A stretch of DNA of 20,961 nt, from positions 1 through 20,961 of IMG/VR virus record IMGVR_UViG_3300031951_001445; one strand, 5' to 3'. The stretch comes from a virus. Shown in pieces: positions 3,224 through 20,961 of the stretch (positions within the stretch are counted from its first letter, which is position 1; each line of letters opens with the position of its first letter). The notes under the pieces were generated by a model, which searched no databases, was not told the origin of the DNA, and worked only from the letters and a program-made list of their open reading frames with translations. Position numbers and translations under genes: made by a program.

Positions 3224-3253
3224 TGCTATCTTCTCCAGTGGTGTGATGCTCAG

Positions 3254-3282: not shown

Positions 3283-3300
3283 TCCCCCCTTATATGGGGA

Positions 3301-3519: not shown

Positions 3520-3547
3520 ACCCTCTCTTTCTTTCCCTTATATCGAC

Positions 3548-3576
3548 ATTATATCATACTTTTCTTGAGACTTCAA
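3548..3576 (-). promoter_or_regulatory. Sigma70-type promoter P9 (class A)
   Basis: TTGAAG (3571-3576), 17-bp spacer, consensus TATAAT (3548-3553) on the minus strand, with the shared 17-bp block at 3537-3553. Confidence 0.75.
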
Positions 3577-3597
3577 TAGGATTTTTGCTGAAAGTTT

Positions 3598-3694
3598 CGT
3601 AAGGTTCATAAATCCTTATGCGACAAGAGTTTACGGCAAACGCGGCCGCCAACGCTCGATGTAAAGTCTTATGGTACAAGAGTTTACATCAAAG
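3598..3694 (-). repeat. Intergenic dyad element E6, the clearest copy
   Basis: Two dyads in tandem flank the core CGCGGCCGCC. The right dyad (3658-3690, 33 bp) is the most symmetric of all. Arms GATGTAAA (3658-3665) and TTTACATC (3683-3690) are perfect complements, inner arms TCTT/AAGA pair again after one mismatch, and the loop is ATGGTAC. The left dyad carries the same core with weaker symmetry. It marks the right-hand boundary of the cassette region. Confidence 0.85.
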
Positions 3695-3815
3695 GGGGTT
3701 TTTTCATTTCCACTGACTCCCAATAAAAAACCGATAAAAGCCCCCGGTGGTCTAGACAAAACTCCAACCTTATAAACTAATTGGCCAGTTTAATAGCCAT
3801 TTTCCACAAACTTAT
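3695..3815. other. Non-coding junction between early cassettes and the AT-rich part
   Basis: No gene, promoter or RNA gene can be supported here. A C-run (GCCCCCGG, 3738-3745) and A/T tracts are present. Base composition changes here from mixed to clearly AT-rich. Confidence 0.5.
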
Positions 3816-3846
3816 AAAAAAAAGCAAGCACCAAATTGATGCTTGC
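3816..3846 (-). terminator. Intrinsic terminator of the minus-strand operon 3877-4411
   Basis: On the minus strand a 7-bp stem GCAAGCA / TGCTTGC (3840-3846 and 3824-3830) with a 9-base loop is followed by eight T (3816-3823). It lies 30 bp beyond the stop codon of the Tyr-rich gene. Confidence 0.88.
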
Positions 3847-3876
3847 CTCTTTTCAAACTATGATTCATTAATTATG

Positions 3877-4182
3877 CTAATAGTTATATTTTACCCATTG
3901 ATTATTATAGTAACCATAGTTTATTACGGAGGGATAATAATTGTATCTATAAGTATTATAGATTACAGGAACATATATTAGCCTATTTTCCACAGTTGTT
4001 ATCATCCTATTCTCCTGCACAATCACAGGAACATAAAATACATTATTTGAAACTTGATACGATGGAACTATTGGTTGTTGATACGCATATGCTACTGGCT
4101 GAGAATAATGCTGAAAATAATCACAAGAATACGCAATATTACAGCTAATAATACAAAATACAAAAAATAATAAATTTTTCAT
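3877..4182 (-). CDS. Tyr-rich secreted or membrane-anchored protein, 101 aa
   Basis: The start is placed at the ATG at 4182, which directly follows the stop codon of the upstream gene (TGATATG). It gives MKNLLFFVFCIISCNIAYSC, a typical signal peptide with Lys, a hydrophobic core and Cys residues. A longer reading from 4212 would spoil the signal sequence. The mature part has about 20 Tyr, many Val and Pro (YVPVI occurs twice) and ends in the Tyr/Asn-rich GYYNNQWVKYNY. A lipoprotein is possible because Cys occurs at the end of the hydrophobic segment, but a canonical lipobox is not clear. No family is recognised. An envelope role such as surface modification or superinfection exclusion is a guess from location and export signal. 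Confidence 0.72.
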   Translation of the reverse strand: MKNLLFFVFCIISCNIAYSCDYFQHYSQPVAYAYQQPIVPSYQVSNNVFYVPVIVQENRMITTVENRLIYVPVIYNTYRYNYYPSVINYGYYNNQWVKYNY

Positions 4183-4183
4183 A

Positions 4184-4411
4184 TCAACTATCATTTGCAA
4201 CAGAAACATCATTAATAACAGGATTCTTCCTTGGACGGCCCCTTGGCTTATTAATTCCTATTTTTCTTCTTTGGCGACGAATCATAGCTGTTGATACAGT
4301 TTCACCCGTCATACTGCTTAATTTTGCGGCCAATGCCCCATCACTATACGCATTAAGATTATCTTTAATATACTGAAGTTCAGTGGCTGTCCATTTTTTA
4401 TATGTTTTCAT
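4184..4411 (-). CDS. Small DNA-binding protein, Myb/HTH-like with AT-hook tail
   Basis: The 75-aa product starts KKWTATELQYIKDNLNAYSD, which resembles the first helix of SANT/Myb-like or related helix-turn-helix domains. It continues with a second and third helix (ALAAKLSSMTG, STAMIRRQRRKIGI). The tail KPRGRPRKNP (about 55-64) has the RGRP core of an AT-hook. Minor-groove binding of AT-rich DNA would suit the neighbouring AT-rich region. It is expressed divergently from the + strand late genes, with TTGACA-TATAAT for the opposite direction only 14-41 bp upstream of its start, so it could regulate that promoter. This is an inference from position. The start has an AAAAGGAA ribosome site. Confidence 0.78.
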   Translation of the reverse strand: MKTYKKWTATELQYIKDNLNAYSDGALAAKLSSMTGETVSTAMIRRQRRKIGINKPRGRPRKNPVINDVSVANDS

Positions 4412-4424
4412 AAATTAGTTCCTT

Positions 4425-4452
4425 TTGACAAAAAGTGTACTTTAACTATAAT
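4425..4452 (+). promoter_or_regulatory. Consensus sigma70 promoter for the + strand gene block
   Basis: TTGACA (4425-4430), 16-bp spacer, TATAAT (4447-4452). It lies between the divergent DNA-binding gene and the first + strand gene, which starts 35 bp downstream. Confidence 0.88.
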
Positions 4453-4486
4453 ATATTAGATCAAACTTCATCAAAGGCAAGAAAAA

Positions 4487-4672
4487 ATGACTAATGAACC
4501 TATAATTCCTTCTGTTTTAACAGTCAAATCTATTGGAGTAGATGTTTCAAATGATCTTAAAATTGATCAAACCAAAAGTATTGCACAATGCTTATATGAC
4601 CAAAATAATACAACAAAGATAATATCTAGTGAAAAAAAACAACAAGAAGAAAATAATAAAGAAGAAGAATAA
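4487..4672 (+). CDS. Hypothetical 61-aa protein overlapping the sigma-like gene
   Basis: The N-terminal part (MTNEPIIPSVLTVKSIGVDV) is weakly hydrophobic and unremarkable. The C-terminal 14 residues are only Lys, Gln, Glu and Asn, encoded by the A-rich stretch 4631-4672. No family is recognised. It is the first gene after the promoter at 4425-4452, with a weak AAAGGC ribosome site. The sigma-like reading frame begins inside it in the +1 frame, across a run of eight A (4632-4639). It may be a separate leader protein or the true N-terminal part of the sigma-like protein joined by slippage. Confidence 0.6.
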   Translation: MTNEPIIPSVLTVKSIGVDVSNDLKIDQTKSIAQCLYDQNNTTKIISSEKKQQEENNKEEE

Positions 4673-5291
4673 AGATAACTTATATGGTGTTAATGAACAA
4701 GACTTTTTAAATGTTATAGATATAATAACAAAAAAATTGGCCTATAAATTTAAATTTGGATATCATGATATTGATGATATGCGCCAACAAATAACCATAT
4801 TTGCTATTGAAGGATTAAAAAATTACGATCATAATAGGCCCCTAGAAAATTTTCTATGGACCCACGTTCGTAACAGATTATTTAATTACAAAAGAGACAA
4901 CTATCAACGACCCAACAAACCCTGCTTAACTTGTCCTTTTTATGATCAGTATTTAAAAAATAGTAATAGTAATTGTTCAAAATATAAAAATAAAAATGAT
5001 TGTGATCTATTCTATAAATGGTTAAATCGTAATACTAATAAAAAAAATCTTATGCATCTAACAACAATAGATGATATTAAAGATTATGGTAACGTATTTG
5101 AAACCCCCACCGACTCTGCTCAAGATGTTGCAGTTAAAGAGATTCTAGAAAAGATAGAAGATAAACTTAATGGAGAATTAAGAGAAATTTATCTTAAACT
5201 TAAAAATGGAGTAAGAGTTAATAAAGCTGATTCTGACAAATTATTTAATCATATTAAAAACGACATATTAGATAGTAATAACGATGAGTAA
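4629..5291 (+). CDS. Sigma-70 region-2-like protein with a Cys cluster (phage sigma factor candidate)
   Basis: Residues about 43-92 read like sigma region 2: FGYHDIDDMRQQITIFAIEG, then a KNYDHNR stretch, then ENFLWTHVRNRLFNYKRDN. The spacing of the DD-MRQQ, YD and WTHVRNRL blocks is that of region 2.1-2.2. A cluster of four Cys (C99, C102, C116, C125; CLTCPFYD and later NC, DC) could bind zinc. Region 4 is not evident, as in short phage late sigma factors of the T4 gp55 type. The 220 aa begin at a GTG with no good ribosome site inside the preceding gene, and the Lys-rich start is probably not conserved. The gene overlaps the next by 8 bp. The sigma assignment is homology-like pattern recognition. 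A late-transcription role is inferred. Confidence 0.68.
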   Translation: MKKNNKKKIIKKKNKDNLYGVNEQDFLNVIDIITKKLAYKFKFGYHDIDDMRQQITIFAIEGLKNYDHNRPLENFLWTHVRNRLFNYKRDNYQRPNKPCLTCPFYDQYLKNSNSNCSKYKNKNDCDLFYKWLNRNTNKKNLMHLTTIDDIKDYGNVFETPTDSAQDVAVKEILEKIEDKLNGELREIYLKLKNGVRVNKADSDKLFNHIKNDILDSNNDE

Positions 5292-6111
5292 AAAACGCGG
5301 ACAACTAAGTTTAGAAGAAGAAAAATTTATCAAAGATAATATTGATTCTTTAACTATAGAACAGATGGCCACCCACTTAAATCGTAACGAAAGTCCCGTT
5401 AAACGTTACATAATTGAAAATCAACTTTATATTAATGATGATACTAAAAACGAATATAATACACTGAAACAAAAGCTTCATAGTAAAACATTCTGGAAAG
5501 AAATTTCTCGTCAATTTGATAGTGAGAGTGGGGAATTAGAATATTTTGAAGAAATATGGATAAATTTAATCAAACAATTTCGAGAAGATGTTTTGCCCGC
5601 CGAAGAACTTCAGATTAAACAATTTATCACCATAGATATTCTTATTAACCGAAGCATGAAAGAAAGAAAACGTCATATTAGTGAAACTGAAAAATTACAA
5701 AAGCTTGTTGATAAAGAATATGAAAAACCTGAAGATCAAAGAGATATTAATAGATTAACCAATTTAGAAAATCAGCTTAGTTTCGCACGAAATAGTGTGG
5801 CAAGCTATACAAATGAATATACTAAATTATTATCCGAGTATCAAAAAATTAGTAAAGATCTTAAGGCCACCCGTGAACAACGAATCAAAAGAATAGAAGA
5901 CGGAAAAAGTAGCTGGGTAGGTTTGATACGAATGCTAGAAGAAGAAGATGTTAGGGAGAAAGAAGGAAGGGAAATGGCCATTTTAAGCATGGCAACAGAC
6001 AAGGCTCGCTCTCAATTATATAATTATCATGAATATCAAGATAATAAAGTAGATATTCCAATATTAAATGATGAAAGTATAACATCAAGAGATGACCATG
6101 AGAAACTATAA
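5284..6111 (+). CDS. HTH plus coiled-coil protein, candidate small terminase subunit
   Basis: The 275-aa protein opens with a basic helix-turn-helix-like part: LSLEEEKFIKDNIDSLTIEQ, then MATHLNRNESPVKRYI (about 8-45). This resembles the small DNA-binding protein encoded at 4184-4411. Residues about 120-205 are strongly helical and charged and should form a coiled coil (KERKRHISETEKLQKLVDKE, ending in LSEYQKISKDLKATREQRIK). The C-terminus is acidic. A DNA-binding N-terminus, a coiled-coil middle and a position upstream of terL all suit a small terminase subunit. However, two nuclease genes intervene and no family is directly recognised. It overlaps the sigma-like gene by 8 bp and the HNH gene by 20 bp. 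Confidence 0.6.
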   Translation: MSKKRGQLSLEEEKFIKDNIDSLTIEQMATHLNRNESPVKRYIIENQLYINDDTKNEYNTLKQKLHSKTFWKEISRQFDSESGELEYFEEIWINLIKQFREDVLPAEELQIKQFITIDILINRSMKERKRHISETEKLQKLVDKEYEKPEDQRDINRLTNLENQLSFARNSVASYTNEYTKLLSEYQKISKDLKATREQRIKRIEDGKSSWVGLIRMLEEEDVREKEGREMAILSMATDKARSQLYNYHEYQDNKVDIPILNDESITSRDDHEKL

Positions 6112-6373
6112 TGATCCACAATATAAACAATGGAGAAAATTAATCAAAACACGAGACCACAATACTTGTCAGTGGCCCAATTGTAATAGTCGTAAAAAAA
6201 TTCACGCCCATCATATTAATAAGTGGGCCGATTTTCCCGGCTTAAGATATCATCCTCTTAATGGTATTTGTCTCTGCAAAATTCATCATGATTATATTAA
6301 AAATAACGAAGAATCATACGTTGGTTTTTTTCAACAACTATTAATGAATAAACAAAATCAATTTAAAAAATAA
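6092..6373 (+). CDS. HNH endonuclease
   Basis: The 93-aa protein has a compact HNH module. A zinc pair C26/C31 is followed by HAHHINKW (38-45), with the catalytic His pair at 40-41. N57 in HPLNGIC and the second zinc/metal set C60, C62, H65, H66 in CLCKIHHDY follow. HNH enzymes make metal-dependent cuts in DNA. In phages a short stand-alone HNH protein next to terL often assists packaging (as in HK97 gp74-type systems), and others are homing endonucleases. The position before ERCC4 and TerL favours the packaging role. It overlaps the upstream gene, and an in-frame ATG at 6098 is an alternative start. Confidence 0.88.
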   Translation: MTMRNYNDPQYKQWRKLIKTRDHNTCQWPNCNSRKKIHAHHINKWADFPGLRYHPLNGICLCKIHHDYIKNNEESYVGFFQQLLMNKQNQFKK

Positions 6374-6374
6374 T

Positions 6375-6839
6375 ATGGCTACTAATCCATTTACTATTAT
6401 TATCGATACTAGAGAACAACATCCCTGGGAGTTCCCAGAATTTGCTGTTGCTAATAAAAAGTTAGATACTGGGGACTATAGTATAGAAGGATTAGAAAAT
6501 ATTTTCACCATAGAAAGAAAAAGAAGCGTTAGTGAAATTGCTGGAAATATAACTGAAAAAAGATTCATAAATGAGATGGAACGAATGGTGGAATATAGGC
6601 ATAAATTTATCCTTATGGAATTTACATTAAACAGTCTATTAGACTATCCGGTGGGATCAACAGTGCCAAGAAGACTATGGAATAATTTAAAAATTACTGG
6701 TAAATATATTTTAAAATCTTTAACAGAGATTAGTATTAAATATAATGTTCATATTATTTATTGTGGAAGTACAGATAATGCAGAAGAAGTGGCCTTATGT
6801 ATAATGAAAAGAATGGCGGAAACATATGGCAAACAATAA
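6375..6839 (+). CDS. ERCC4-type (XPF-like) nuclease
   Basis: The 154-aa product carries the ERCC4 nuclease core. DTREQHPWEF (11-20) is followed by LDTGDYSIEG (30-39) and IERKRSVSEI (46-55), which contains the ERK signature (47-49). Acidic residues D11, E14, D34 and E47 are the expected metal ligands. RFINEMERM (63-71) matches the helix that follows in family members. XPF-family nucleases cut branched or flap DNA. A stand-alone phage copy could resolve recombination or replication intermediates before packaging. It starts 2 bp after the HNH stop and overlaps terL by 14 bp, so these three are expressed together. Confidence 0.9.
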   Translation: MATNPFTIIIDTREQHPWEFPEFAVANKKLDTGDYSIEGLENIFTIERKRSVSEIAGNITEKRFINEMERMVEYRHKFILMEFTLNSLLDYPVGSTVPRRLWNNLKITGKYILKSLTEISIKYNVHIIYCGSTDNAEEVALCIMKRMAETYGKQ

Positions 6840-8853
6840 TGTAAAGCTTTATCAAGATGCATGGTTAGGTCTTGGTGATCTTGATAGTCTCGTTATACCA
6901 AATAATCCTATGATTGGTCGCTCAAAGATCGATATAGAAAGACCAGATCTGCATCTTTTAAGACTATTAAGAGATCCTAAATATATGGGAACAACAGTTA
7001 AACTCTTATTTAATATAGAACTACATCCTATACAAGTTGTTCTTCTTCAGGAATTTTGGGACCGTCCATTTCCTATGTTCGTTGCAACCCGTGGTTTTGG
7101 TAAAAGCTTTATCTTAGCGCTATATTCTTTATTAAAATGTATTTTTGTTCCTGGTACAAAGATAGTAATAGTAGGTTCCGCTTTTAGGCAGAGTAAAATT
7201 ATTTTTGAATATATGGAAAATATTTGGAATAATAGCCCAGTTTTAAGAAGTATCTTTAGTGGTAATAATGATGGTCCAAGAAGAGATGTTGACCGATGCA
7301 CTATAAGATTAGGAGATAGTTGGACGATTGCTGTACCACTAGGAACAGGAGAAAAAATCAGAGGTTTACGTGCTCATATTATTATTGCTGACGAATTTGC
7401 TTCAATATCTCCAGAAATTTATGAAACAGTAGTTTCTGGTTTCGCTGCTGTAAGCGCCAGTCCTATTCAGAATGTTAAAGAAGAAGCTCGTAAACAAGCT
7501 ATGAAAGATAGTGGATTATGGAGTGAAGAATTAGAAGTTTTACAAACTAAAAAAAATAATCAAGCAATAATTGCTGGAACAGCAGACTATAGTTTTAAAC
7601 ATTTTGCTAGTTATTGGAAAAGATATAAAAGCATAATAGAAAGTAAAGGAGATAAGCATAAACTAGAGGAATTATTTAAGGGTGAGGTTCCAGATAGCTT
7701 TAACTGGAAAGACTATAGCATTATTCGTATTCCTTATGAATTAGTTCCAAAAGGATTTATGGATGATAAACAAGTATCTCGTTCTAAAGCTACAATACAT
7801 ACTGGCATATATAATATGGAATATGCTGCGTGTTTCACAGAAGATAGTGATGGATTTTTTAAACGTAGTTTAATTGAAAGTTGTGTCTGTAGCGAAAGTA
7901 AACCAGTTATTATTAATGACAAACCAATATTTTTTGATGTTTCAACATCAGGTAAACCAGATTTACAATATGTATATGGTGTGGATCCAGCATCGGAAAA
8001 AGATAATTTTAGTATAGTTATACTAGAATTACATCCGGATCATAATCGAGTAGTTTACTGTTGGACCACTAATCGTAATAATTTCAAAGAACGTCAAAAA
8101 ACTGGATTAGTATTAGAGCATGATTTTTATGGATTCTGTGCTAGAAAAATAAGAAATTTAATGAAAACATTTCCTTGTGCTAAATTAGGCATGGATGCTC
8201 AAGGAGGCGGAGTAGCAATCGAAGAAGTGTTACATGATCCATCAAAACTAGATGTTGGTGAAAATCTAATATGGCCAATTATCGAAAATAAAGAAAAAGA
8301 TACTGATCATGAATCAGGATTACATATACTTGAATTAGTTCAATTCGCCAGAGCAGATTGGACAGCTCAGGCTAATCATGGTTTAAGAAAAGACTTAGAA
8401 GATAAACTACTTATTTTTCCCAGATTCGATCAATTGAGTTTAGCTTTAGCTTTAGATAAAGAAAATAAAGACATAATGGAAACATCTTTTGATAATCTAT
8501 ATGATAGTGAGAGTGAACTTATTCTAGAAATCGAAGAACTAAAAAATGAATTGACAACTATAGTAATGACACAAACTAGCTCCGCCGGAGGAGCCAGAGA
8601 TCGCTGGGATACTCCTGAAGTTAAATTACCAAATGGTAAGAAGGGTAAATTAAGAAAAGACCGATATAGTGCTTTAGTAATAGCAAATATGTTAGCGAGA
8701 CAAATAAATAGAGCATCAGAACCATTAAATTATGACGTCATAGGTTCTAATCTAAGAGATAAAGGAATGAAACAGTCAGGAAATATGTATAAAGGACCAA
8801 ATTGGTTTACCGAAGGAGCAAACGATAATATATATAAAGGAGTTTACAGATAG
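6826..8853 (+). CDS. terL: Terminase large subunit (packaging ATPase and nuclease)
   Basis: The 675-aa protein has both domains of TerL. In the ATPase part, Walker A is TRGFGKS (88-94), Walker B is IIIADE (185-190), and the coupling motif is GTA (251-253). The RNase H-like nuclease part has the three expected Asp: D387 in YGVDPAS, D457 in LGMDAQGGG, and D612 in KDRYSALVIAN. It pumps DNA into the prohead through the portal and cuts the concatemer. The region between D457 and D612 is long and includes a charged, probably coiled segment (about 560-580), which makes the protein larger than the usual 450-600 aa. It is coupled to the ERCC4 gene by a 14-bp overlap. Confidence 0.97.
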   Translation: MANNNVKLYQDAWLGLGDLDSLVIPNNPMIGRSKIDIERPDLHLLRLLRDPKYMGTTVKLLFNIELHPIQVVLLQEFWDRPFPMFVATRGFGKSFILALYSLLKCIFVPGTKIVIVGSAFRQSKIIFEYMENIWNNSPVLRSIFSGNNDGPRRDVDRCTIRLGDSWTIAVPLGTGEKIRGLRAHIIIADEFASISPEIYETVVSGFAAVSASPIQNVKEEARKQAMKDSGLWSEELEVLQTKKNNQAIIAGTADYSFKHFASYWKRYKSIIESKGDKHKLEELFKGEVPDSFNWKDYSIIRIPYELVPKGFMDDKQVSRSKATIHTGIYNMEYAACFTEDSDGFFKRSLIESCVCSESKPVIINDKPIFFDVSTSGKPDLQYVYGVDPASEKDNFSIVILELHPDHNRVVYCWTTNRNNFKERQKTGLVLEHDFYGFCARKIRNLMKTFPCAKLGMDAQGGGVAIEEVLHDPSKLDVGENLIWPIIENKEKDTDHESGLHILELVQFARADWTAQANHGLRKDLEDKLLIFPRFDQLSLALALDKENKDIMETSFDNLYDSESELILEIEELKNELTTIVMTQTSSAGGARDRWDTPEVKLPNGKKGKLRKDRYSALVIANMLARQINRASEPLNYDVIGSNLRDKGMKQSGNMYKGPNWFTEGANDNIYKGVYR

Positions 8854-8902
8854 CTTGGTGTAATTTACTATAAATCTATCACAATACTAATACAATACTA
8901 TT
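8850..8902 (+). promoter_or_regulatory. Candidate late-type promoter region before the portal gene
   Basis: The 49-bp gap after terL holds ACTATAAATCTATC (8868-8881), similar to the TATAAATA of T4-type late promoters. It also holds ATAGCTTGGTGTA (8850-8862), a 13-mer repeated at 11061-11073 near the end of the portal gene. No sigma70 -35 is seen. Confidence 0.3.
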
Positions 8903-11092
8903 ATGCCAAGAAAAAAGACCAAAAACGAAGTTATACAAGACGCTAGTCCACTAAAACCTGAAGAAGCTTACATAACATGGTCAGATGATTTGACCGATAA
9001 AAGAGAAGCTTTTAAAGAAATTGGCAAAAGCTTAGATGAATATGGATTAATAGATAAAGCCGTAGCTAATCAAAGTCGATATAGACTAGATTTTTCTAAT
9101 TTAACAGGAGATACTAGCAGTCGCCCAGGATTAACTCGTAGCGATTATGATTACTTTCGACCAGAAGAAAGCATACCAACTCAACTTAAGTTAATTTTTA
9201 GAAAAGCATCTGTTATCTATGACAGAGTAGGATTAGTTAAAAATGTTATAGATCTTATGTCTGATTTTGCCAGTCAAGGAATAAGACCGGTTCATCCTAA
9301 TAAAAGAATAGAAAGATTCTATCGTAATTGGTTTGATAAGGTTAATGGAGAAGATCGTAGTGAAAGATTTCTTAATAATTTATATAAAGTTGGAAATGTT
9401 GTTATAAATAAACAGACAGCTAAAATTAGTCTTAAGGTTGCAGATAGTTTATATAAAGCAGTTGCCGAAGCTGATTTTTCTATAGATAGTGAAGGATCAA
9501 AAATAGAAAAAAGAGAAATACCATGGAAATATACTTTTATAGATCCAGTATATGTTGATGTTATTGGTGGCTCATTATCTTCTTTTGTTGGAAATAAAAC
9601 ATATGCTATATCTTTACCAGCAGCTTTAAGAAAAGTTATTAATAATCCCAAGAATGAATCAGAACAAGCAATTATAAATCAATTACCATCTCAAGTAATT
9701 GAAGCAGCTAAAAGTAAAAAACAATATCCTCTAGATCCTAATAAAACATTAGTATTTCATTATAAAAAAGATGATTGGCAAACTTGGGCATATCCTATGA
9801 TATATGCTATTATGGATGATATTAATATTATTGAAAAATTAAAATTAGCAGATTTAGCCGCTCTTGATGGAGCCATAAGTAATATTCGTATTTTTAAACT
9901 AGGTAGTTTAGAACATAAAATTGCACCAACAGCAGCCGCTGCTAGTAAACTAAGTGCGATACTAGAAAATAATGTTGGTGGTGGAACAATGGATCTTGTA
10001 TGGGGTCCAGATATTGAATTAATAGAAAGTAAAACTACAGTACATCAGTTCCTAGGAGAAGCAAAATATACTCCGCATCTTAATAGTATTTATGCTGGTT
10101 TAGGAATTCCTCCGACACTAACAGGCACATATGGCGCTTCTGGTACAACTAATAATTTCATTTCATTAAAAACTTTGACACAAAGACTTCAATACGGAAG
10201 AAGAAAACTAATAGCGTTTTGGAAGCAAGAAATGATAGAGGTACAAAAAGCGATGGGCTTTAGATATCCAGCTAAAATAGAATTTGATAGAATGGATCTT
10301 AGTAATGAGGATGCAGAGAAAGCTCTATTAGTACAACTAGCTGATAGAAATCTTGTCTCCGATGAGATGCTACAAAGAATATTTGGATTTGATCCCGATC
10401 TTGAAAGAACACGTCTTAATAGAGAGTCAAGAGATAGAGATAGTGGTCGTATGGTTAATAAGTCTGGACCTTGGTATGATCCACAAGTTGAAGAATCTCT
10501 AAAAAAGATAGCTTTACAAAATGGTTTAGCAGCCCCAAGTCAAGTAGGACTAGAACTAGAAAAGAAAAAAAATGGAGAAAAAACTGGTCTAGAAATGAAA
10601 GCCCCACCAACTACAAACACTTCTGCACCATTGCCTGATATTCAAAAAGGTCAACCCCAACAAGGAAGACCAAAAAATTCTAAAGATAGTGAAAAAAGAA
10701 AGACCAAACAATTTGGACCAAGGACCGGAGCAAATATTCAATTGTGGGCTATAGCTACTCAGGATAAAATATCAGAAATTTTAAATCCAGTACTATTAGA
10801 ATTTTATAGTAAAAAAAATATGAGAAGTTTATCTAGCACAGAATATGATGAAGCAGAAAGTGCTAAAACCAAAGTGTTCCTTTCTCTTGATCCATTAACT
10901 GTTATTAATGATGAAATAATTTTATCTAAATTAAATGATATAAATAATATTAAGATATCTCATATTTATAGCCATTATTTGGATTGGTCTAAAAATATCT
11001 CTATAGATTTAGATAAAGCCTTAACTTCAGAAGAACAAAAATACAATAAAGCCTATTTTTATAGCTTGGTGTATAATTCTGATATTGAATAA
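8903..11092 (+). CDS. Portal protein
   Basis: This 729-aa protein forms the dodecameric ring at the capsid vertex through which DNA passes. The central part is portal-like. The stem/wing region is followed by TPHLNSIYAGLGIPPTLTGT and then SLKTLTQRLQYGRRKLIAFW, a long helix typical of portals. After it comes RMDLSNEDAEKALLVQLADR and a metal/turn-rich FGFDPDLERTRLNRE. The last ~190 residues are unusual for a portal: a Pro/Gln/Lys-rich linker (PPTTNTSAPLPDIQKGQPQQ, about 570-590) and a helical C-terminal domain. The length exceeds the common 450-550 aa. No clear ribosome site precedes the ATG. The assignment rests on these segments and on its position between terL and the prohead protease. Confidence 0.88.
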   Translation: MPRKKTKNEVIQDASPLKPEEAYITWSDDLTDKREAFKEIGKSLDEYGLIDKAVANQSRYRLDFSNLTGDTSSRPGLTRSDYDYFRPEESIPTQLKLIFRKASVIYDRVGLVKNVIDLMSDFASQGIRPVHPNKRIERFYRNWFDKVNGEDRSERFLNNLYKVGNVVINKQTAKISLKVADSLYKAVAEADFSIDSEGSKIEKREIPWKYTFIDPVYVDVIGGSLSSFVGNKTYAISLPAALRKVINNPKNESEQAIINQLPSQVIEAAKSKKQYPLDPNKTLVFHYKKDDWQTWAYPMIYAIMDDINIIEKLKLADLAALDGAISNIRIFKLGSLEHKIAPTAAAASKLSAILENNVGGGTMDLVWGPDIELIESKTTVHQFLGEAKYTPHLNSIYAGLGIPPTLTGTYGASGTTNNFISLKTLTQRLQYGRRKLIAFWKQEMIEVQKAMGFRYPAKIEFDRMDLSNEDAEKALLVQLADRNLVSDEMLQRIFGFDPDLERTRLNRESRDRDSGRMVNKSGPWYDPQVEESLKKIALQNGLAAPSQVGLELEKKKNGEKTGLEMKAPPTTNTSAPLPDIQKGQPQQGRPKNSKDSEKRKTKQFGPRTGANIQLWAIATQDKISEILNPVLLEFYSKKNMRSLSSTEYDEAESAKTKVFLSLDPLTVINDEIILSKLNDINNIKISHIYSHYLDWSKNISIDLDKALTSEEQKYNKAYFYSLVYNSDIE

Positions 11093-11113
11093 TCCACATT
11101 AAGGATCATAATA

Positions 11114-12628
11114 ATGATTGTATATAAATCTGAAGAAAATGATGGTTTATCTGAAGTATTATCAACAAAAGCTTGTGTTACATATGCTACATTAGCAGCT
11201 CCATCAGAGCCATTCAGCACAGAATCTGCTCCAGAACTAAAGGCCATTGCAAGTCTAGAAGATCAAGATCTATATTATGTTCAGTCTATTTTAGTTACTA
11301 GTTCTTGGAATAAAAATGATGATATTTTTGATAAAGTAGAAGTTTGGAATGCTAAAAATACACCAACTCACAAACCAACCAATTTAGAGCATGACGAAAA
11401 TATTATTGTTGGTCATATTACAGCTAATTGGCCAATAACACAAGAAGGCATATTAATTAACGATAATACTTCTATTGATAGTTTACCAAATAAATTTCAT
11501 ATATTAACCGGTTCTGTTATTTATACTGGTTATAGTAATCCAGAACTAAAAAATAGAGCAGAAGAATTAATTAATGAAATTCAAAATGGGGAAAAATATG
11601 TTAGTATGGAGTGCTTTTTTAAGGGTTTTGATTATGGTTTAATAGATAAAAGCACTGGAAAGTATAATATACTACCAAGAAATGAAACAACAGCATATTT
11701 AACCAAACACTTAAGAGCTTATGGTGGACAAGGTGAGCATGAAAACTATAAGATAGGAAGAGTATTAAGAGATATAACATTCTCTGGAAAGGGATTTGTT
11801 AATAAGCCAGCTAATCCAGAAAGTATAATCTTTAATTCAGATAATTTAAAATTTGGTAAGGCTAGTATTAGTAATAGAGAAAAAAACGATAGTTTTAAAA
11901 AAATAGGTGTATCTTCAAATCAAGCAAATACTCAGGAGAATAATATTATGAGTTTAGAAAAACAAGTTGCCGAAATTTTTGAAAAAATTGAAAATATTAG
12001 TACAAATACTAATGCTTTAGTTGAAGCTAATAATACAATAGCCCAACTTAAGAATCAATTAAGCGCAGCTGAAACAGCTGTAGCCGCTAGCGATGAAAAC
12101 ATGCAAAAAATGAAAGCTGAATTTGATTCAGTATTAGCTGCTACAACAGAGACTCAAACAAAAGCAAATGAAGAAATAGCTGCTCAAATTGAAGCACTAA
12201 AAAATGAACTAGTAGCCTCTGAAGAAATCATTGCAGCTTATAAGAATAAAGAAGCTGAAATGATTAAAAAAGAAAAAAATATGAAAAGAATGGCATCTCT
12301 TATCGAGAAAGGTGTTGATTCAGAGTCAGCATCAGCCACTGTTGAAAAATTAGCAGACCTTACTGACGAAGCTTTCGAAGCAGTAACCAGTCTTGTAGCT
12401 CTAGCTGCTAAGCCAGTTAAGCCAGCAGAAAAGATCGAGAAAAAAGAAACCAAAGCAGAAGAACAATCTGATGTTTCAGAAGTTTTAGAAACAGCAGAAG
12501 CAACAGAAAGTATTGATCTTAGTGTTGGTGAGGATAGCGAAGAACCAGCAGTAGAAAATACTAGAGCAGCTTTAGTAGATTTTGTGTATAGTAGATTAGG
12601 CAAAAAATCAACCAATAAGGGAGAGTAA
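11114..12628 (+). CDS. Prohead protease fused to scaffold domain
   Basis: The N-terminal ~245 residues are a prohead (U9/U35-like) serine protease. H93 sits in NLEHDENIIVGHI, Ser164 in KYVSMECFFKGF, and the family-typical ending ITFSGKGFVNKPANPES is at 221-237. From residue 279 the sequence changes to a long coiled coil (SLEKQVAEIFEKIENI onward, to about 400), an acidic Glu/Ala-rich segment, and a C-terminal helix with a basic tail (VDFVYSRLGKKSTNKGE), as in capsid scaffolds. The protease would cleave the scaffold and itself during capsid maturation. An AAGGA ribosome site precedes the ATG. An internal start at 11948 would make the scaffold part alone. Confidence 0.88.
   Translation: MIVYKSEENDGLSEVLSTKACVTYATLAAPSEPFSTESAPELKAIASLEDQDLYYVQSILVTSSWNKNDDIFDKVEVWNAKNTPTHKPTNLEHDENIIVGHITANWPITQEGILINDNTSIDSLPNKFHILTGSVIYTGYSNPELKNRAEELINEIQNGEKYVSMECFFKGFDYGLIDKSTGKYNILPRNETTAYLTKHLRAYGGQGEHENYKIGRVLRDITFSGKGFVNKPANPESIIFNSDNLKFGKASISNREKNDSFKKIGVSSNQANTQENNIMSLEKQVAEIFEKIENISTNTNALVEANNTIAQLKNQLSAAETAVAASDENMQKMKAEFDSVLAATTETQTKANEEIAAQIEALKNELVASEEIIAAYKNKEAEMIKKEKNMKRMASLIEKGVDSESASATVEKLADLTDEAFEAVTSLVALAAKPVKPAEKIEKKETKAEEQSDVSEVLETAEATESIDLSVGEDSEEPAVENTRAALVDFVYSRLGKKSTNKGE
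11948..12628 (+). CDS. Probable nested scaffold protein (internal start)
   Basis: An in-frame ATG at codon 279 of the protease gene is preceded by AGGAG (11934-11938) at 9 bases, better than most ribosome sites in this region. It begins exactly at the domain border, where the protease ends and the coiled-coil part starts, and gives a 226-aa protein. This is the arrangement of lambda C/Nu3, where the scaffold is made in excess from an internal start. The ribosome site and border are seen in the sequence. Expression is inferred. Confidence 0.65.
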   Translation: MSLEKQVAEIFEKIENISTNTNALVEANNTIAQLKNQLSAAETAVAASDENMQKMKAEFDSVLAATTETQTKANEEIAAQIEALKNELVASEEIIAAYKNKEAEMIKKEKNMKRMASLIEKGVDSESASATVEKLADLTDEAFEAVTSLVALAAKPVKPAEKIEKKETKAEEQSDVSEVLETAEATESIDLSVGEDSEEPAVENTRAALVDFVYSRLGKKSTNKGE

Positions 12629-13106: not shown

Positions 13107-14129
13107 ATGTCCACCAATCGTTTTGAACCAACACCAGAGCTTACTGACCTATTAGTTCGTTCTGGTTCACCAAGTAGAGAAGTATCAGTAGCAGCTTGTC
13201 ATGAGTTTGCTAAGGCCCTAGAGCTACCTCTTCGCAAAGGTTTGTTAAGCGGAGATATTCTAAATGGCATTTTTGAGCCAATTAAATTGGCCCCTGGTGC
13301 TACTCCAGAATTTCCACTTGACTTTTTAGCTCCAGGTTCTGAAAGAGATTTCGTAGCCTATACCATCCCAAATCACGGATATATTCCAGAGCGTCACGTT
13401 GAGAGCGATTACGTCATGGTTCCAACCTATGATATCGGCGCCTCAATCGATTATCTCTTAAAATATGCTCGTAATGCTCGTTGGGATGTTGTTGGTCGTG
13501 CTATGGAAGTTCTCGAAGGCTCATTTGTTAAGAAGATGAACGACGATGGCTGGCACACTCTATTAGCTGCTGGCGTTGATCGTAATATCGTAGTATTCGA
13601 TAGCGATGCATCAGTTGGTCAGTTTACTAAGCGTCTAGTAAGTCTCATGAAGACTGTTATGCGCAGAAACGGTGGCGGTAATTCTGCTAGTAATAATCGT
13701 GGTTTACTAACAGATCTTTATGTTTCACCAGAAGCAATGGAAGATATCCGCAATTGGGGTCTTGATCAAGTTGATGAGATTACTCGTCGTGAAATTTATG
13801 TAGCTGCTGATGGTACACTAAACCGTGTATTCGGAGTAAATCTACATGATCTAGATGAACTCGGAGAAGGTCAGGAATATCAACTATTTTATAGTAATAT
13901 TCTTGGTGGTACACTACCACAAAACTATAGTGGTTCAGATGACAAGGTCGAACTTGTTGTTGGTTTAGATCTTCGTAAGAGCGACAGCTTTATTATGCCA
14001 GTTCGTGAAGAAGTTCAAATTTTTGAAGATGAAACACTACATCGTCAAAAGAGAGCTGGTTATTATGGCTGGGCAGAGCAAGGCTTTGCTGTTCTAGATA
14101 ATCGTAGAGTACTACTTGGCGCTCTCTGA
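13107..14129 (+). CDS. Major capsid protein, HK97-type fold
   Basis: The 340-aa protein is expected to form the icosahedral shell. There is an N-terminal arm, then an E-loop-like stretch with FVAYTIPNHGYIPERHVESD, and a long helix (SIDYLLKYARNARWDVVGRA). After these come the A-domain-like FGVNLHDLDELGEGQEYQLF and the usual C-terminal EEVQIFEDETLHRQKRAGYY plus GWAEQGFAVLDNRRV, as in related large-phage capsid proteins. It has GGGAGAAG as ribosome site, lies directly downstream of the decoration gene and is followed by a strong terminator. Arg codons are mostly CGT here, unlike the AGA of the terminase and portal genes, which is typical of very highly translated genes. Confidence 0.93.
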   Translation: MSTNRFEPTPELTDLLVRSGSPSREVSVAACHEFAKALELPLRKGLLSGDILNGIFEPIKLAPGATPEFPLDFLAPGSERDFVAYTIPNHGYIPERHVESDYVMVPTYDIGASIDYLLKYARNARWDVVGRAMEVLEGSFVKKMNDDGWHTLLAAGVDRNIVVFDSDASVGQFTKRLVSLMKTVMRRNGGGNSASNNRGLLTDLYVSPEAMEDIRNWGLDQVDEITRREIYVAADGTLNRVFGVNLHDLDELGEGQEYQLFYSNILGGTLPQNYSGSDDKVELVVGLDLRKSDSFIMPVREEVQIFEDETLHRQKRAGYYGWAEQGFAVLDNRRVLLGAL

Positions 14130-14262: not shown

Positions 14263-14664
14263 ATGGCAGCAAGTAAATATGATTTTCCTATAGAACAAGG
14301 TAGTTCTTTTAAACTTAGTTTAGTTTATAAAGATTCTGATGATAATGTGGTCGATTTAACTGGTTGGTGCTCCAGATTAATCTGGGTAACTAATACTGGT
14401 ACTACACAAGTATTTACAACAGAAAATGTAAATGATACTTCTTATAATTTTACAATAGATGGTACAAATGGTAAGATTATATTATTAATACCGGCCAATA
14501 CCACTAATTTATTTAATTTTTTTGGCGCAAAATATGACCTAGAATTACAAAGTCCCGAAGAGCTGTATGCTGGTGGCGGTAAATATACTATTAGATTATT
14601 ATATGGAGATATAGAAATAGTTAAAAGATATACCCGTTCTGGTACTGCTCTGGAGTGTCAATGA
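14263..14664 (+). CDS. Beta-rich virion structural protein (tail/baseplate type)
   Basis: The 133-aa product has the recurrent pattern of a small phage tail or baseplate family: [20 protein letters not shown], then DNVVDLTGW, then a [18 protein letters not shown] stretch, then YDLELQSP and a final [17 protein letters not shown]. It resembles an Ig-like or BppU-like beta sandwich, which in other phages lies next to fibre genes. I do not know its precise partner. The AGGA before the ATG is weak. Its stop overlaps the start of the collagen-like gene by 4 bp (ATGA), so the two should be translated together and may interact. Confidence 0.8.
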
Positions 14665-17600
14665 GCGATTTTATATTGCAAATTATTGAACAAAATGTCA
14701 ATAAAATACAAATCGAAACTAGTATCATAGATGTAACTCCTACTAAAATAGAGATCGAGCAGTTTAATAATGTTAATGTTGATAATGCTTATATAGAGAA
14801 TATAATAGACAATGTCGAAATTCAGACATATGATTCTATTAATTTACAAATTACTGATACTGGTAAAATTTTAGCGGGAGATTTACCAGATAATATTCCA
14901 ATGAGTAAAATTATTGGAAATCTTCATTATACAAGAATAGATGATTTAGATAGTCATATTATAGATATTGCTGGTTCTGGTGGCGGAGGGGGAAATGGCT
15001 CCCAAGGTATACAGGGAATACAAGGAAAACAAGGTATTCAAGGAGCACAAGGGTCACAAGGTAGACAAGGAACTCAAGGATTATATGGAGTACAAGGTAT
15101 TCAAGGATCTCAAGGAGGAGGAGCCCAAGGAATTCAAGGTATACAAGGTTCTCAGGGTAGACAAGGTATTCAAGGAAGTATAGGGGCCGGATTACCAGGT
15201 TCTCAAGGAATTCAAGGAATTAGAGGTAACAGTGGTATACAGGGCTCAACTGGTTCCGGCAGTCAAGGAATACAAGGCATCCAGGGTAGACAGGGAATAA
15301 CAGGTAGGCAAGGAATTCAAGGGATCCAGGGAACCAATGGTGGCCAAGGTATTCAAGGAATTCAAGGAGTTCAGGGTATTCAAGGAAGTACTGGTATTGG
15401 ATCTCAAGGCGTACAAGGAATAATTGGTGCTTTATCTTGGACACCAAATTTTGTTGGAAATATAAGTCAATATGCTAGTAATTCTAACTCTTTTATTAAA
15501 ACCGTTAGTACCGCAACCGCACAGGTTTATTCTAGCGAAGGATATACGAACGGAGCGTTCTGTTCTGCCAAACTTTCTGCAACAGATTTTGCAGCAGCTT
15601 TTGGTTTAACTAGCGATCCTACAGCAAGCTCAGATTATTCTACAATAGATTATGCCTGGTATTTTCTTGGTAGCTATGCGCTCGTTATTGAAAATGGTGT
15701 GAGTAGTGATACTTATTTCTTTTCTTATACTTCATCAAATATTTTTTATATTACTTATGATGGTATTTATATAAGATATTGGGTAGACGGGGTTTTATAT
15801 AGAACTGTTCAAAGATCAATAGGTAGTCCATTATATTTTGATGGTATTCTTTATAATCTTAATAGTAGAATAGATTCTGTTTCTTTTGGACCAATGGCTC
15901 AGTCTGGTAGTCAAGGATTACAAGGCATACAAGGCATTCAAGGTAGACAAGGAGTTCAAGGCATTCAAGGATTAGGAAGTCAGGGTATTCAAGGACTTCA
16001 AGGAAGACAAGGTGTCCAAGGTATCCAAGGTCCGCAAGGAACACAAGGCATTCAAGGCTCTCAAGGTACTCAAGGTTCACAAGGCATTCAAGGTATTCAA
16101 GGTATTCAAGGAATTACTGGCAGTCAGGGAGTACAAGGAGTTCAAGGTATTCAAGGTAGACAGGGTATCCAAGGTATTCAAGGAATTACTGGCGGTCAGG
16201 GGATACAGGGCATACAGGGAGTACAAGGTATTCAAGGTCCACAAGGCATTCAAGGAGTTCAAGGAGTTACTGGCAGTCAGGGAGTACAAGGCATTCAGGG
16301 TAGACAAGGAATTCAAGGTATATCAGGATCATTTGCTGGACAAGGTATACAAGGAATTCAAGGCTCACAAGGATTACAAGGAATTCAAGGATTATTAGGT
16401 GATCAAGGTATTCAAGGAGTTCAAGGGATAACTGGTAGCCAGGGTAGTCAAGGAATTCAAGGAATTCTTGGTAATCAAGGAATTCAAGGCATACAAGGAA
16501 TAGACGGTGCTTTTGCCGGACAAGGTATACAAGGAGTTCAGGGAATTCAAGGTATTGGTTCACAGGGAATACAAGGTTCTCAAGGACTTGACGGAGCATT
16601 TGCCGGACAAGGCATTCAAGGTCCGCAAGGAGTTCAAGGACTTCAAGGAGCACAAGGTTTTATTGGTAACCAAGGAGTTCAAGGATTACAAGGAATTCAA
16701 GGAACTGATGGAAGTCAAGGACTACTTGGAAATCAAGGGACTCAGGGAATCCAAGGAGTCCAAGGAATTCTTGGTAATCAAGGCTTACAAGGAATTCAAG
16801 GAATTATTGGAGCTCAAGGCGCTCAAGGAATTCAAGGTATTCAAGGTAGACAGGGTATTCAAGGAGTTCAAGGTCCACAAGGAGTTCAAGGAATTCAAGG
16901 AAACGATGGAGCTTTTGCTGGACAAGGTATTCAAGGAATTCAAGGCAGACAAGGTATTCAAGGAATAACTGGAGGTCAGGGAGTTCAAGGTATCCAGGGG
17001 AATACTGGAAGCGCTGGAAGTCAGGGAATTCAAGGAATTCAAGGAAGACAAGGAATTCAAGGAGTACAAGGAAATGATGGAGCTTTTGCTGGACAAGGTA
17101 TTCAAGGAATTCAAGGCAGACAAGGTATTCAAGGAGTTAGAGGAGCCCCAACATGGACACCGAATATTACTGGCGCAGGAACACTTACCCAGTCCTCAAC
17201 TGAACCAAGTACTTTTAATCACCCCATAAATGATGGAACATGTCAAGTATATTCATCTGAAGGATACACAAGAGGAGCATTTTGTTCTGCATCTGTTACT
17301 GGTAGTTCTAATTTTGGTATTTTTGCATTTGGTTTAAATAGTGATCCAACAACAGATGTAAATATGGAAAGTATAGATTATTGTTTTTATTGTATTGTTG
17401 GCAATATAAATTCTACTACTGTTGAAATAGCAATATATGAAAATGGTACGCTTAGAACATATCCGGGCAATGTTACAAGTACTTCCACTCTTGCTATTAC
17501 ATATGATGGAAGTAATATTAGGTATTTAGTAAATGGTACTGTTGTAAGAACTGTTGCTAGAAGTATTGGATCGGCCCTTTATTTTGATTCAGCTTTTTAC

Positions 17601-20600
17601 CAGATATCCACTTTAAGTTCTGTTGTTTTCGGGCCTATGGGAGAAATAGGCAGTCAGGGAATCCAAGGTATCCAAGGAATTCAGGGCATAACTGGCACTC
17701 AGGGTGCTCAAGGAATCCAAGGAGTACAAGGAAACTCTGGAAGCTCTGGAGCTCAAGGAGTTCAGGGTATTCAAGGTAGACAAGGCTTACAAGGTATTCA
17801 AGGAAATTCTGGCAGTTCTGGAAGTCAAGGCATTCAAGGTAGTTCTGGAAGCTCTGGGAACCAAGGAATTCAAGGAATTCAAGGAAGACAGGGTATTCAA
17901 GGTATACAAGGATCACAAGGAAATACTGGAACTCAAGGAATTCAAGGTATTTTTGGAGCTTTATGTTGGACACCAGTATTTAGCGGAGATGTCGCACAAT
18001 CTTCTAGTAGTACAAATAGTTTTATAAAAACAGTTAGCAATGGTACAGCATCGGTTTACTCCCAAGAAGGATACACAAGAGGAGTATTTTTCTCTGCAAA
18101 ACCATCTAATAATAATGTTGTAACAGCTTTTGGATTAACCAGCGATCCTACTGCAAGTGCCAATTACGACACTATAGATTATGCTTGGTATTGCTACAAT
18201 AGTGGAGCTGCTGGCATATTTGAAAATGGAGTTATACCAGTTGTAGTATCCGTTTCCTATTCATCGTCAACAGTGTTCTCTATTACTTATGATGGAGCAA
18301 ATATTAGATATTGGGCAGATGGTGTCCTATACAGAACGGTAGCTAGAGCAATTGGTAGTCCATTATATTTTGACTCATCAGTCTATACATTAAATACTGG
18401 TATAAATTCAGTTACTTTTGGACCTATGGGTGAAGTCGGAACTCAGGGGATTCAAGGTATTCAAGGAAGTATTGGTAGTCAAGGAGTTCAAGGAATTCAA
18501 GGAAGCTCAGGAAGTCAGGGTATTCAAGGAGTTCAAGGCAGACAAGGCTTACAGGGTATTCAAGGAAGTTCTGGCAGCGCTGGAAGTCAAGGTGTTCAAG
18601 GTATTCAGGGTAGTAGCGGAAGCATTGGAAGTCAAGGCACTCAGGGCATTCAAGGTAGCGCTGGAAGTTCGGGAAGCCAAGGTATTCAAGGTATTCAAGG
18701 TATTCAAGGAATAACGGGTAGTCAGGGTAGTCAAGGTTTACAAGGTATTCAAGGAATAATCGGAAGTCAGGGCGTTCAAGGTATTCAAGGACTTACTGGA
18801 GGTCAGGGCATACAAGGTATTCAAGGTCCACAAGGCATTCAAGGTATTCAAGGAATAACTGGAAGTCAGGGAGTTCAAGGCATTCAAGGACTTTACGGAA
18901 GTCAAGGACTACAAGGTATTCAAGGAGGTCAAGGTAGCCAAGGAATACAAGGTGTTCAAGGAACCACAGGTTTAAATGGATTAAGTACTGGAGCGAATTT
19001 TTTCTTAAGCTCTTCTGTAACACAATTTAACTCCTATAAACAACTATCAAAAACACCAAGCGGCGCAGGATCTCAAACAATATCAATAAATTTAGCCGGT
19101 CTTGAACAAAATAGATTAGTAGCATCATATATTACAGATGTTAATGAACCAAATGCATACCTTGTTCCTCCTGGTATTTGGCATTTATATAGCTATTTAA
19201 CAAAACCAACACCTAATAGTAATGTTACATATTATTATACAGTTAGTAAATATCCAATTGGTGGCCCAGAAACACTACTGGTAACGTCAGATACTGTTCA
19301 AATAGGCTGGGATACTGATAATACTACTCCAGTAGAAACTAAGAGTAACGCTGTTATAGCAACTAATAGTTTAAATCTCACCGATAGAATAGTTATTAAT
19401 ATTTATCTGAATAATAATGATAATAATACTAGATTAACCACATTTTATACAGAAGATGCTCATTATTCTTATTTAGTAAGTACTTTTTCTACTCCGGGTG
19501 TTCAAGGCATCCAGGGCATACAAGGTATTCAAGGAATAACTGGCAGTCAGGGCGTTCAAGGCATTCAAGGTCCACAAGGCATTCAAGGTATTCAAGGAAT
19601 AACTGGCAGTCAGGGCGTTCAAGGCATTCAAGGTCCACAAGGCATTCAAGGTATTCAAGGAATTACTGGCAGTCAAGGAGTACAAGGCGTTCAAGGCATT
19701 CAAGGTTCACAAGGCATTCAAGGTATTCAAGGAATAACTGGCAGTCAGGGCGTTCAAGGCATTCAAGGTCCACAAGGACTACAAGGTATTCAAGGAATAA
19801 CTGGCAGTCAGGGCGTTCAAGGCATTCAAGGTTCACAAGGCATTCAAGGTATTCAAGGAATAACTGGCAGTCAAGGAGTACAAGGCGTTCAAGGCATTCA
19901 AAGTTCACAAGGCATTCAAGGTATTCAAGGAATAACTGGCAGTCAGGGAGTACAAGGTATTCAAGGTCCACAAGGCATTCAAGGTATTCAAGGAATAACT
20001 GGCAGTCAAGGAGTACAAGGCGTTCAAGGCATTCAAGGTTCACAAGGCATTCAAGGTATTCAAGGAATAACTGGCAGTCAGGGCGTTCAAGGCATTCAAG
20101 GTCCACAAGGCATTCAAGGTATTCAAGGAATAACTGGCAGTCAAGGAGTACAAGGCGTTCAAGGCATTCAAGGTTCACAAGGCATTCAAGGTATTCAAGG
20201 AATAACTGGCAGTCAGGGAATTCAAGGCATTCAAGGTTCACAAGGCATTCAAGGTATTCAAGGAATAACTGGCAGTCAGGGCGTTCAAGGCATTCAAGGT
20301 CCACAAGGACTACAAGGTATTCAAGGAATAACTGGCAGTCAAGGAGTACAAGGTATTCAAGGTCCACAAGGACTACAAGGTATTCAAGGAATTACTGGCA
20401 GTCAAGGAGTACAAGGCGTTCAAGGCATTCAAGGTTCACAAGGCATTCAAGGTATTCAAGGAATAACTGGCAGTCAGGGAGTACAAGGTATTCAAGGTCC
20501 ACAAGGCATTCAAGGTATTCAAGGAATAACTGGCAGTCAAGGAGTACAAGGCGTTCAAGGCATTCAAGGTCCACAAGGACTACAAGGTATTCAAGGAATA

Positions 20601-20961
20601 ACTGGCAGTCAGGGAATTCAAGGCATTCAAGGTCCACAAGGACTACAAGGTATTCAAGGAATAACTGGCAGTCAGGGCGTTCAAGGTATTCAAGGAAGAC
20701 AGGGCATTCAAGGTATTCAAGGAATTACTGGCAGTCAGGGAATTCAAGGCATTCAAGGTTCACAAGGCATTCAAGGTATTCAAGGAATAACTGGCAGTCA
20801 GGGAGTACAAGGTATTCAAGGTCCACAAGGACTACAAGGTATTCAAGGAATTACTGGCAGTCAAGGAGTACAAGGCGTTCAGGGTATACAAGGTCCACAA
20901 GGACTACAAGGTATTCAAGGAATAACTGGCAGTCAGGGAATTCAAGGCATTCAAGGTCCAC
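14661..20961 (+). CDS. Giant collagen-like tail fibre protein, C-terminus beyond the window
   Basis: One open frame without a stop runs for 2,100 codons to the last base. Residues 1-104 form a helical/beta N-terminal domain, probably the virion attachment. Five Gly-X-Y stretches follow, rich in Gln and Ile (GIQGIQG, GSQG, GPQG) after a short poly-Gly linker (105-112). They span about residues 113-254, 414-828, 993-1098, 1257-1438 and 1613-2100+. They alternate with three homologous globular domains (255-413, 829-992, 1099-1256) and one unrelated domain (1439-1612). Collagen triplets in phage fibres form trimeric shafts, and the domains between them may bind surface glycans. Pro is rare, so stability would come from Gln and Thr. 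I checked the frame across all domain borders. Long ORFs on the opposite strand are by-products of the repeats. Confidence 0.95.
14973..15425 (+). repeat. Collagen-like repeat stretch 1
   Basis: Starts with a Gly-rich linker (GSGGGGGNG) and continues as Gly-X-Y with Gln in most Y positions. The frame is the same as in the whole gene. Confidence 0.9.
15426..15899 (+). other. Globular domain 1 of the fibre
   Basis: About 158 residues starting LSWTPNFVG and ending near FGPMAQSG, with [30 protein letters not shown] and [13 protein letters not shown]. It is homologous to domains 2 and 3. The pattern suggests a jelly-roll lectin-like (concanavalin/SPRY-type) fold, which is inferred from these strand signatures. 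Confidence 0.8.
15900..17144 (+). repeat. Collagen-like repeat stretch 2 (longest complete one)
   Basis: About 415 residues of Gly-X-Y triplets. Inserts such as DGAFAGQG recur (near 16506, 16592, 16905 and 17076), which suggests internal duplication. Confidence 0.9.
17145..17640 (+). other. Globular domain 2 of the fibre
   Basis: Begins [10 protein letters not shown] and ends in a SVVFGPMGE block. [14 protein letters not shown] and [19 protein letters not shown] align with domains 1 and 3, and the N-terminal part is somewhat longer and diverged. This is the least similar copy of the three. Confidence 0.78.
17641..17954 (+). repeat. Collagen-like repeat stretch 3
   Basis: Short Gly-X-Y stretch with several GSSGSSG-like triplets in place of GIQ. 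Confidence 0.88.
17955..18432 (+). other. Globular domain 3 of the fibre
   Basis: Starts [11 protein letters not shown], with [31 protein letters not shown] and [19 protein letters not shown], and ends SVTFGPMGE. Closest to domain 1 in sequence. Confidence 0.8.
18433..18974 (+). repeat. Collagen-like repeat stretch 4
   Basis: Gly-X-Y triplets, at first with GSSGS elements, then passing into the [10 protein letters not shown] pattern that later dominates stretch 5. Confidence 0.88.
18975..19496 (+). other. Globular domain 4 of the fibre (unrelated fold)
   Basis: About 174 residues without similarity to domains 1-3. It begins [19 protein letters not shown], has [14 protein letters not shown] and [17 protein letters not shown], and ends [13 protein letters not shown]. 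The regular beta-strand pattern of polar and hydrophobic residues suggests a beta sandwich. No family is assigned. Confidence 0.75.
19497..20961 (+). repeat. Homogeneous 63/72-bp tandem array (collagen-like stretch 5)
   Basis: The mark ACTGGCAGTCA occurs 22 times from 19539 to 20925, with spacing of only 63 or 72 bp (14 and 7 intervals). Each unit is 7 or 8 Gly-X-Y triplets, containing [10 protein letters not shown] and GIQG with GPQ, GSQ or GLQ. The array runs off the window. Copy number is probably variable by unequal recombination. One Gly is replaced by Ser at codon 1748 (19902-19904). Confidence 0.95.

Follow-up and report, generated by a model that had tools for sequence, protein, structure and literature searches.

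The window, a whole IMG/VR record of 20,961 bp that is classed as linear and is probably a fragment, ends in a tandem array of 63- and 72-bp units. We consider this array likely to form the distal portion, as far as it is visible, of a collagen-like virion fibre that is very long and modular and whose rod length drifts through unit changes that keep both the reading frame and the Gly-X-Y phase. The fibre is probably trimeric and can probably change length. Judging from the IMG sample numbers and the company of other matches, the phage is presumably of freshwater origin.

Organization of the fibre gene and its neighbourhood

The fibre ORF contains five Gly-X-Y stretches, with Gln in most third positions and non-collagen domains between the stretches (Table 1). 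It holds 435 visible Gly-X-Y triplets, and the Pfam collagen model PF01391 (cut-off 27.2) scored 592.8 bits on the ORF and 274.4 bits on the array alone. The predicted product is a collagen-like rod, putatively a triple helix, carrying three lectin/SPRY-like domains and one jelly-roll-like domain. A PDB sequence search with the array gave chain 8zxl_X (spindlefibril/axialfibril) as the best match; since this chain is a plain Gly-X-Y repeat, the match indicates collagen-like composition only.

Copies 2 and 3 of the repeated domain are 46% and 61% identical to copy 1, respectively. AlphaFold2 modelled copy 3 as a concanavalin/SPRY-type sandwich, which Foldseek matched to SPRY domains, the VIP36 lectin, and CBM66, and its sequence relatives are Cellulophaga phage structural proteins (34% identity, E 2e-3). 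These modelled folds suggest that the lectin-like domains may bind sugars. For domain 4, modelled as all-beta, the best Foldseek matches were CocE-type esterases, over ~222 columns of a 570-residue chain, with TNF-like matches being weaker. Searching the phages collection by tblastn gave no match to domain 4 or to the array, the latter a low-complexity query that was possibly filtered, and a domain 4 scan of the genome_contigs collection returned 64 pattern matches and no confirmed relative.

Table 1. Coordinates of the fibre gene, its modules, and neighbouring genes in the window
Feature	Position	Strand	Remarks
Terminase large subunit	6826..8853	+	phrog_2, E 2.9e-21
Putative major capsid protein	13107..14129	+	named by position and conservation only
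Fibre ORF	14655..20961	+	at least 2,102 aa, open at contig end; PF01391 592.8 bits
N-terminal non-collagen domain	14655..14978	+	stand-alone protein of about 86-125 aa in relatives
Older Gly-X-Y stretch 1	14979..15431	+	
Lectin/SPRY-like domain copy 1	15432..15902	+	alignment A1; phage matches; fold via homology to copy 3
Older Gly-X-Y stretch 2 (diverged stretch of the original prediction)	15903..17141	+	
Lectin/SPRY-like domain copy 2	17142..17645	+	alignment to copy 1
Gly-X-Y stretch 3	17646..17954	+	
Lectin/SPRY-like domain copy 3	17955..18437	+	AlphaFold2 pLDDT 90.6; Foldseek; phrog_19691
Gly-X-Y stretch 4	18438..18983	+	
Domain 4, all-beta, jelly-roll-like	18984..19496	+	AlphaFold2 pLDDT 76.6; Foldseek; 31 IMG/VR loci
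Array lead-in Gly-X-Y, 45 nt	19497..19541	+	
Array, 14 units of 63 bp and 7 of 72 bp	19542..20927	+	
Gly to Ser codon, array unit 6	19902..19904	+	also in 3300031857_001581
Partial 22nd unit, cut by record end	20928..20961	+	

The terminase matched 41 phage records, all at less than 60% identity and at 20–25% among the matches listed. A terminase scan yielded 582 relatives, and the analysis continued with the best 80, three of which matched at 100% identity. The capsid gene is present in 56 of these best 80 (of 582), 38 of the 56 extend at least 2.5 kb beyond it, and a Gly-X-Y ORF follows in 12 of those 38, the three same-phage records included. The putative capsid protein itself was found in five of eight records tested, at 85–89% identity, and had no family or phage match, tblastn of the phages collection and the PHROG search included. 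In relatives, the collagen-like gene follows the putative capsid gene and is itself followed by a set of connector-like and tape-measure-like genes (named by position and size, not by family search), and relative G013 is without a collagen-like gene at that place. From this distribution, the collagen-like gene looks like optional, exchangeable cargo. The N-terminal domain was found at 27 loci, 24 of them outside the same-phage records, and none of the 24 continues into Gly-X-Y sequence (one ran off its contig). Because this domain stands alone in other phages, the window gene looks like a fusion of a short stand-alone protein to a collagen-like rod.

This setting bears on the site and role of the fibre. 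A head or neck decoration of nearly neutral length, as opposed to a host-range tail fibre, is a real possibility, although short of probable, and as sites the head or neck and the tail are equally plausible. The decoration reading is favoured by the position of the gene, with the putative capsid gene and one small gene immediately upstream and, in relatives, the connector-like and tape-measure-like block after it; by the low frequency of Gly-X-Y ORFs beyond the capsid gene (12 of 38) and the absence of the gene at that place in G013; and by the match of the lectin-like domain to phrog_19691, which is filed under head and packaging. On the other hand, the array matches many PHROGs named tail fiber, though by composition, and lectin-like domains fit adhesion. 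A head or neck site would be compatible with the repeat mechanism that we favour, namely frame-keeping change in unit number.

The remainder of the record differs in composition along its length, with a G+C content of 42–49% over positions 1–4000 versus 29–33% over 4001–12000. Positions 1–3700 carry six copies of an 80-nt intergenic element at 497–792-bp spacing; the small minus-strand ORFs between the copies include an HU-type DNA-binding protein (2945–3223) and an ORF (235–558) like Kyanoviridae Gp96. The left part is not a chimera of the window contig alone, since two same-phage records reach further left and differ at a single base in 1,186. Upstream of the terminase lie an ERCC4-type nuclease (6375–6839, E 7e-9) and an ORF (4629–5291) whose resemblance to sigma-70 region 2 is weak (E 4e-5, slightly under the cut-off).

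The tandem array and its variation among same-phage records

Between 19497 and 20961, we located 22 unit starts with every spacing either 63 or 72 bp, confirming the exact periodicity that had been described; 21 units are complete and the last is partial. This count is a minimum, as position 20961 is the record end and the array runs off it. TRF gave a period of 63 with 22.0 copies, together with higher-order periods of 135 and 198 bp. Mean pairwise DNA identity was 92.4% among the 14 units of 63 bp (10 distinct) and 95.8% among the seven units of 72 bp (4 distinct). The original prediction had called the units almost identical; their likeness at the DNA level is indeed high, but it amounts to 92–96% and not 99%.

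Synonymous-codon shuffles that kept the protein gave a unit identity of 82.3% (63 bp) and 81.6% (72 bp), with a maximum of 85.1%. Repeated 31-mers occupied 1216 of 1431 positions in the array, against a mean of 31 and a maximum of 126 in 300 shuffles; outside the array, they occupied 60 of 1218 positions at 15903–17150 and none in the other three Gly-X-Y stretches. The supposed contrast between a young array and a diverged stretch at 15900–17144 is therefore real and far above chance. That the units resemble each other only through protein constraint (codon choice, selection) and not through recent duplication is extremely improbable: the protein is very repetitive and Gln-rich, as such constraint would have it, but the shuffles fall far short of the observed repeats and the older stretches, which code for the same kind of repeat, show at most 60 repeated positions. 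Pure codon constraint was rejected on the synonymous-shuffle test. With the shuffles so far below the observed values, the likeness of the units reflects homogenisation of the DNA, and the array is young at the DNA level.

Exact repeats within the array occur at two spacings: those of 137, 121, and 92 bp have copies 531 bp apart, and one of 125 bp has copies 135 bp apart; the longest is 137 bp and none reaches 141. The periods of 135 and 198 bp together with the exact repeats at 531 bp point to copying of multi-unit blocks in addition to single units. Of the proposed recent unequal recombination, the recent homogenising duplication is borne out, and recombination or slippage is the process that we infer behind it. 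Older stretch 2 holds a 60-nt exact repeat at 16905 and 17076 (spacing 171 bp), which is a smaller, separate recent duplication. The array has Gly-X-Y runs of 45 and 116 triplets, and its register is broken once, by a Gly to Ser change in one unit; since 3300031857_001581 carries the same change, a sequencing error is unlikely.

The three same-phage records were compared with the window inside and outside the array. Outside it, 3300031857_001581 and 3300032050_000866 showed 0 mismatches over 19,496 bp, and 3300008114_000238 showed 2 mismatches over 17,117 bp. Within it, only two units are visible in 3300032050_000866, both identical to the window, while 3300031857_001581 is identical to the window up to and including unit 17, departing from it in the final 43 nt; 0 of its 1183 31-mers are new, and this terminal difference may be an assembler's wrong branch. 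In 3300008114_000238, units 1–3 match the window and divergence begins from the fourth unit on. Six of its 10 units are identical to some window unit and four are absent from the window, and 47 of its 672 31-mers and 21 of its 682 21-mers are absent from both other arrays compared. An anchored BLAST alignment placed 23 of 25 mismatches inside the array and 2 outside. Global alignment of the two arrays, in which the left end is unanchored and from which no rate was drawn, showed 16 mismatched positions among 702 columns, the gaps being 189, 9, and 72. Taking the contigs at face value, the array would appear to change far faster than its flanks.

None of the four same-phage contigs gets through the array; they stop after 2, 10, 17, and 21 complete units, so that the earlier doubt about short-read assembly was justified and the unit count is a lower bound. 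Short-read assemblers commonly have k-mer limits of about the size of the 137-bp repeat. It is accordingly conceivable, but unlikely, that the differences between samples are assembly artefacts, with one fixed array resolved differently and broken near the k-mer limit. The four contig ends and the absence of any exact repeat of 141 bp fit such an origin. The novel 31-mers and 21-mers of 3300008114_000238 argue against it, as mis-ordering makes no new short words unless they come from the unseen part of the array; even so, this record may contain assembly errors in part of its array, or its novel units may belong to the stretch of the window array beyond the contig end. We retain true change in the array as the preferred reading. 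Such variation is seen here at the level of sequence; a copy-number difference is not proven for the window phage, because no record shows the complete array. A relaxed unit pattern searched in viral_contigs matched only stretches of the three same-phage records, and the far half of the fibre gene was thus not found; a first, differently degenerate pattern also matched two contigs of a related fibre.

Related fibre genes and a second phage with domain 4

Complete collagen-like fibre genes in the same place were available for two relatives, G009 (3300013372_004679, 907 aa) and G010 (3300042907_001518, 743 aa), whose flanks are 99.6% identical upstream and 98.9% identical downstream. Within Gly-X-Y sequence, the two differ by clean gaps of 9, 9, 162, and 45 nt; the remaining gaps of 263, 1, 21, 11, and 7 nt (sum 303, a multiple of 3) lie toward the C-terminal side, where a module has been exchanged. 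The longest exact repeat in this pair is only 22 nt, so assembly is unlikely to have caused the length difference. Variation in complete, low-repeat genes such as these also speaks against an assembly origin of the differences in the window array. The pair thus provides a repeat-number difference between complete alleles and supports length polymorphism of this type of fibre gene, as judged from these alleles. The prediction that length changes keep the frame and register is supported by the clean gaps, although the register of the window array is broken once by the Gly to Ser change. Strain variation, also predicted, is present at the sequence level, one of three same-phage records differing in the array against 2 flank mismatches in 17,117 bp, and in length in the related pair.

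Speaking against such variation, other fibre genes in the family are invariant between samples: L067, L069, and L071 show no difference over 3,729 nt, nor does L075 over its 1,527 nt, and L079 and L082 are the same over 2,286 nt. In the complete genes of L114 and L115 (protein 84% identical, upstream only 55%), numerous Gly-X-Y gaps are multiples of three residues, yet other gap sizes occur too; the pair was rejected as evidence of length change, as it is too diverged.

Domain 4 is present in 31 IMG/VR loci, 20 of which (L116–L135) share one nearly identical domain and array start, with domain 4 followed by a Gly-Ser/Thr rich collagen-like array. With L128 as the reference, 8 of the 19 other loci were identical over the whole shared upstream region (10,460–10,516 bp) and one more had 4 mismatches; for the other ten, the ungapped comparison was broken by differences further upstream. 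In 18 of the 20 contigs the sequence stops within the array; L116 and L125, which span it, each have a frame break, at different places, and these observations, too, fit an assembly artefact. The number of 117-bp spacings (13 × 9 bp) is one in each of L116, L125, and L134 and two in L126; L128 shows three before its contig ends. With one 117-bp unit removed, L126 is exactly the same as L116 and L134 across 531 nt of the array. This is suggestive of a difference in the number of 117-bp units among these contigs, although, with an exact repeat of 137 bp in this array, a collapse to one copy is possible.

We rejected this second phage as a sister of the window phage, as none of its records that were tested (three, for 20 loci, and two of them short) contains the capsid protein of the window; domain 4 is better read as a fibre module shared and exchanged between two phages. 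The L128 contig of the second phage, at 222 kb, ends in the array. In 3300044591_001286, a complete gene with a domain 4 homologue continues into further domains, and L137 carries, after position 10519, a repeated domain-4-like domain with Gly-Thr-Ser collagen-like stretches between the copies.

Proposed mechanism and comparison with known systems

In the mechanism that we propose, homologous recombination or replication slippage between the 63/72-bp units and unit blocks would add, remove, and reshuffle units, and because the unit lengths are multiples of 9 bp, most events would keep the frame and the Gly-X-Y phase. Rod length would then drift quickly while the domains stay fixed. Most likely, the fibre would present its sugar-binding domains at a distance from the particle, where they could contact host surfaces, and selection may act on the length changes. 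If the rod forms a triple helix with the rise of 2.9 Å per residue given in an excerpt of PMC3368898, each 63-bp unit would add ~6 nm and each 72-bp unit ~7 nm, and the 435 visible triplets would span ~380 nm. A stronger version, in which the array is a phage contingency locus, that is, a recombination hotspot that generates length variants within a population whose genomes are otherwise close to clonal, with selection tuning the rod to host surface layers, seems to us rather doubtful.

If confirmed, frame-keeping drift of the array would be a natural case of phage fibre length evolving much faster than the rest of the genome, as is already known for bacterial collagen-like adhesins; its interest lies in a near-clonal flank set against a variable array. 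The contig ends also show a database bias: public assemblies of phages with arrays of this kind break at this one gene (4 of 4 contigs here and 18 of 20 in the second phage), so that the longest such fibres are missing from databases.

A literature search by title and abstract start found nothing on tandem-repeat length variation in collagen-like phage fibres. In Bacillus anthracis, the repeat number of BclA is reportedly polymorphic and alters filament length. Likewise, the collagen-like tandem repeat number of Legionella Lcl is polymorphic between strains and alters adhesion, according to the excerpt of PMC6460258. The window array shares with BclA/Lcl-type adhesins a DNA-level tandem repeat in the collagen region; as far as these accounts go, Lcl and BclA are bacterial surface proteins, whereas the window protein is a predicted virion fibre.

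Among phages, the tail-associated lysins (Tal) of S. thermophilus phages are described in excerpts of PMC9437275 and PMC13207995 as having carbohydrate-binding domains and collagen-like linkers of variable number and length. Like Tal as excerpted there, the window protein separates predicted carbohydrate-binding domains by collagen-like stretches; unlike Tal, its rod is far longer and Gly-X-Gln rich, and its gene, located beside the putative capsid gene, contains a DNA array of recent homogenisation. For the E. coli prophage protein EPcl, the excerpted part of PMC3368898 reports Col lengths that typically differ by multiples of three residues, and a trimer and triple helix shown by experiment. 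The window fibre, known from sequence alone, resembles EPcl as excerpted there in placing a phage collagen domain between other domains, and differs in that the EPcl Col domain is short (111 residues in the protein studied) and has other capping domains. Collagen-like phage fibres and length-polymorphic bacterial collagens are thus already known, and the window fibre joins them.
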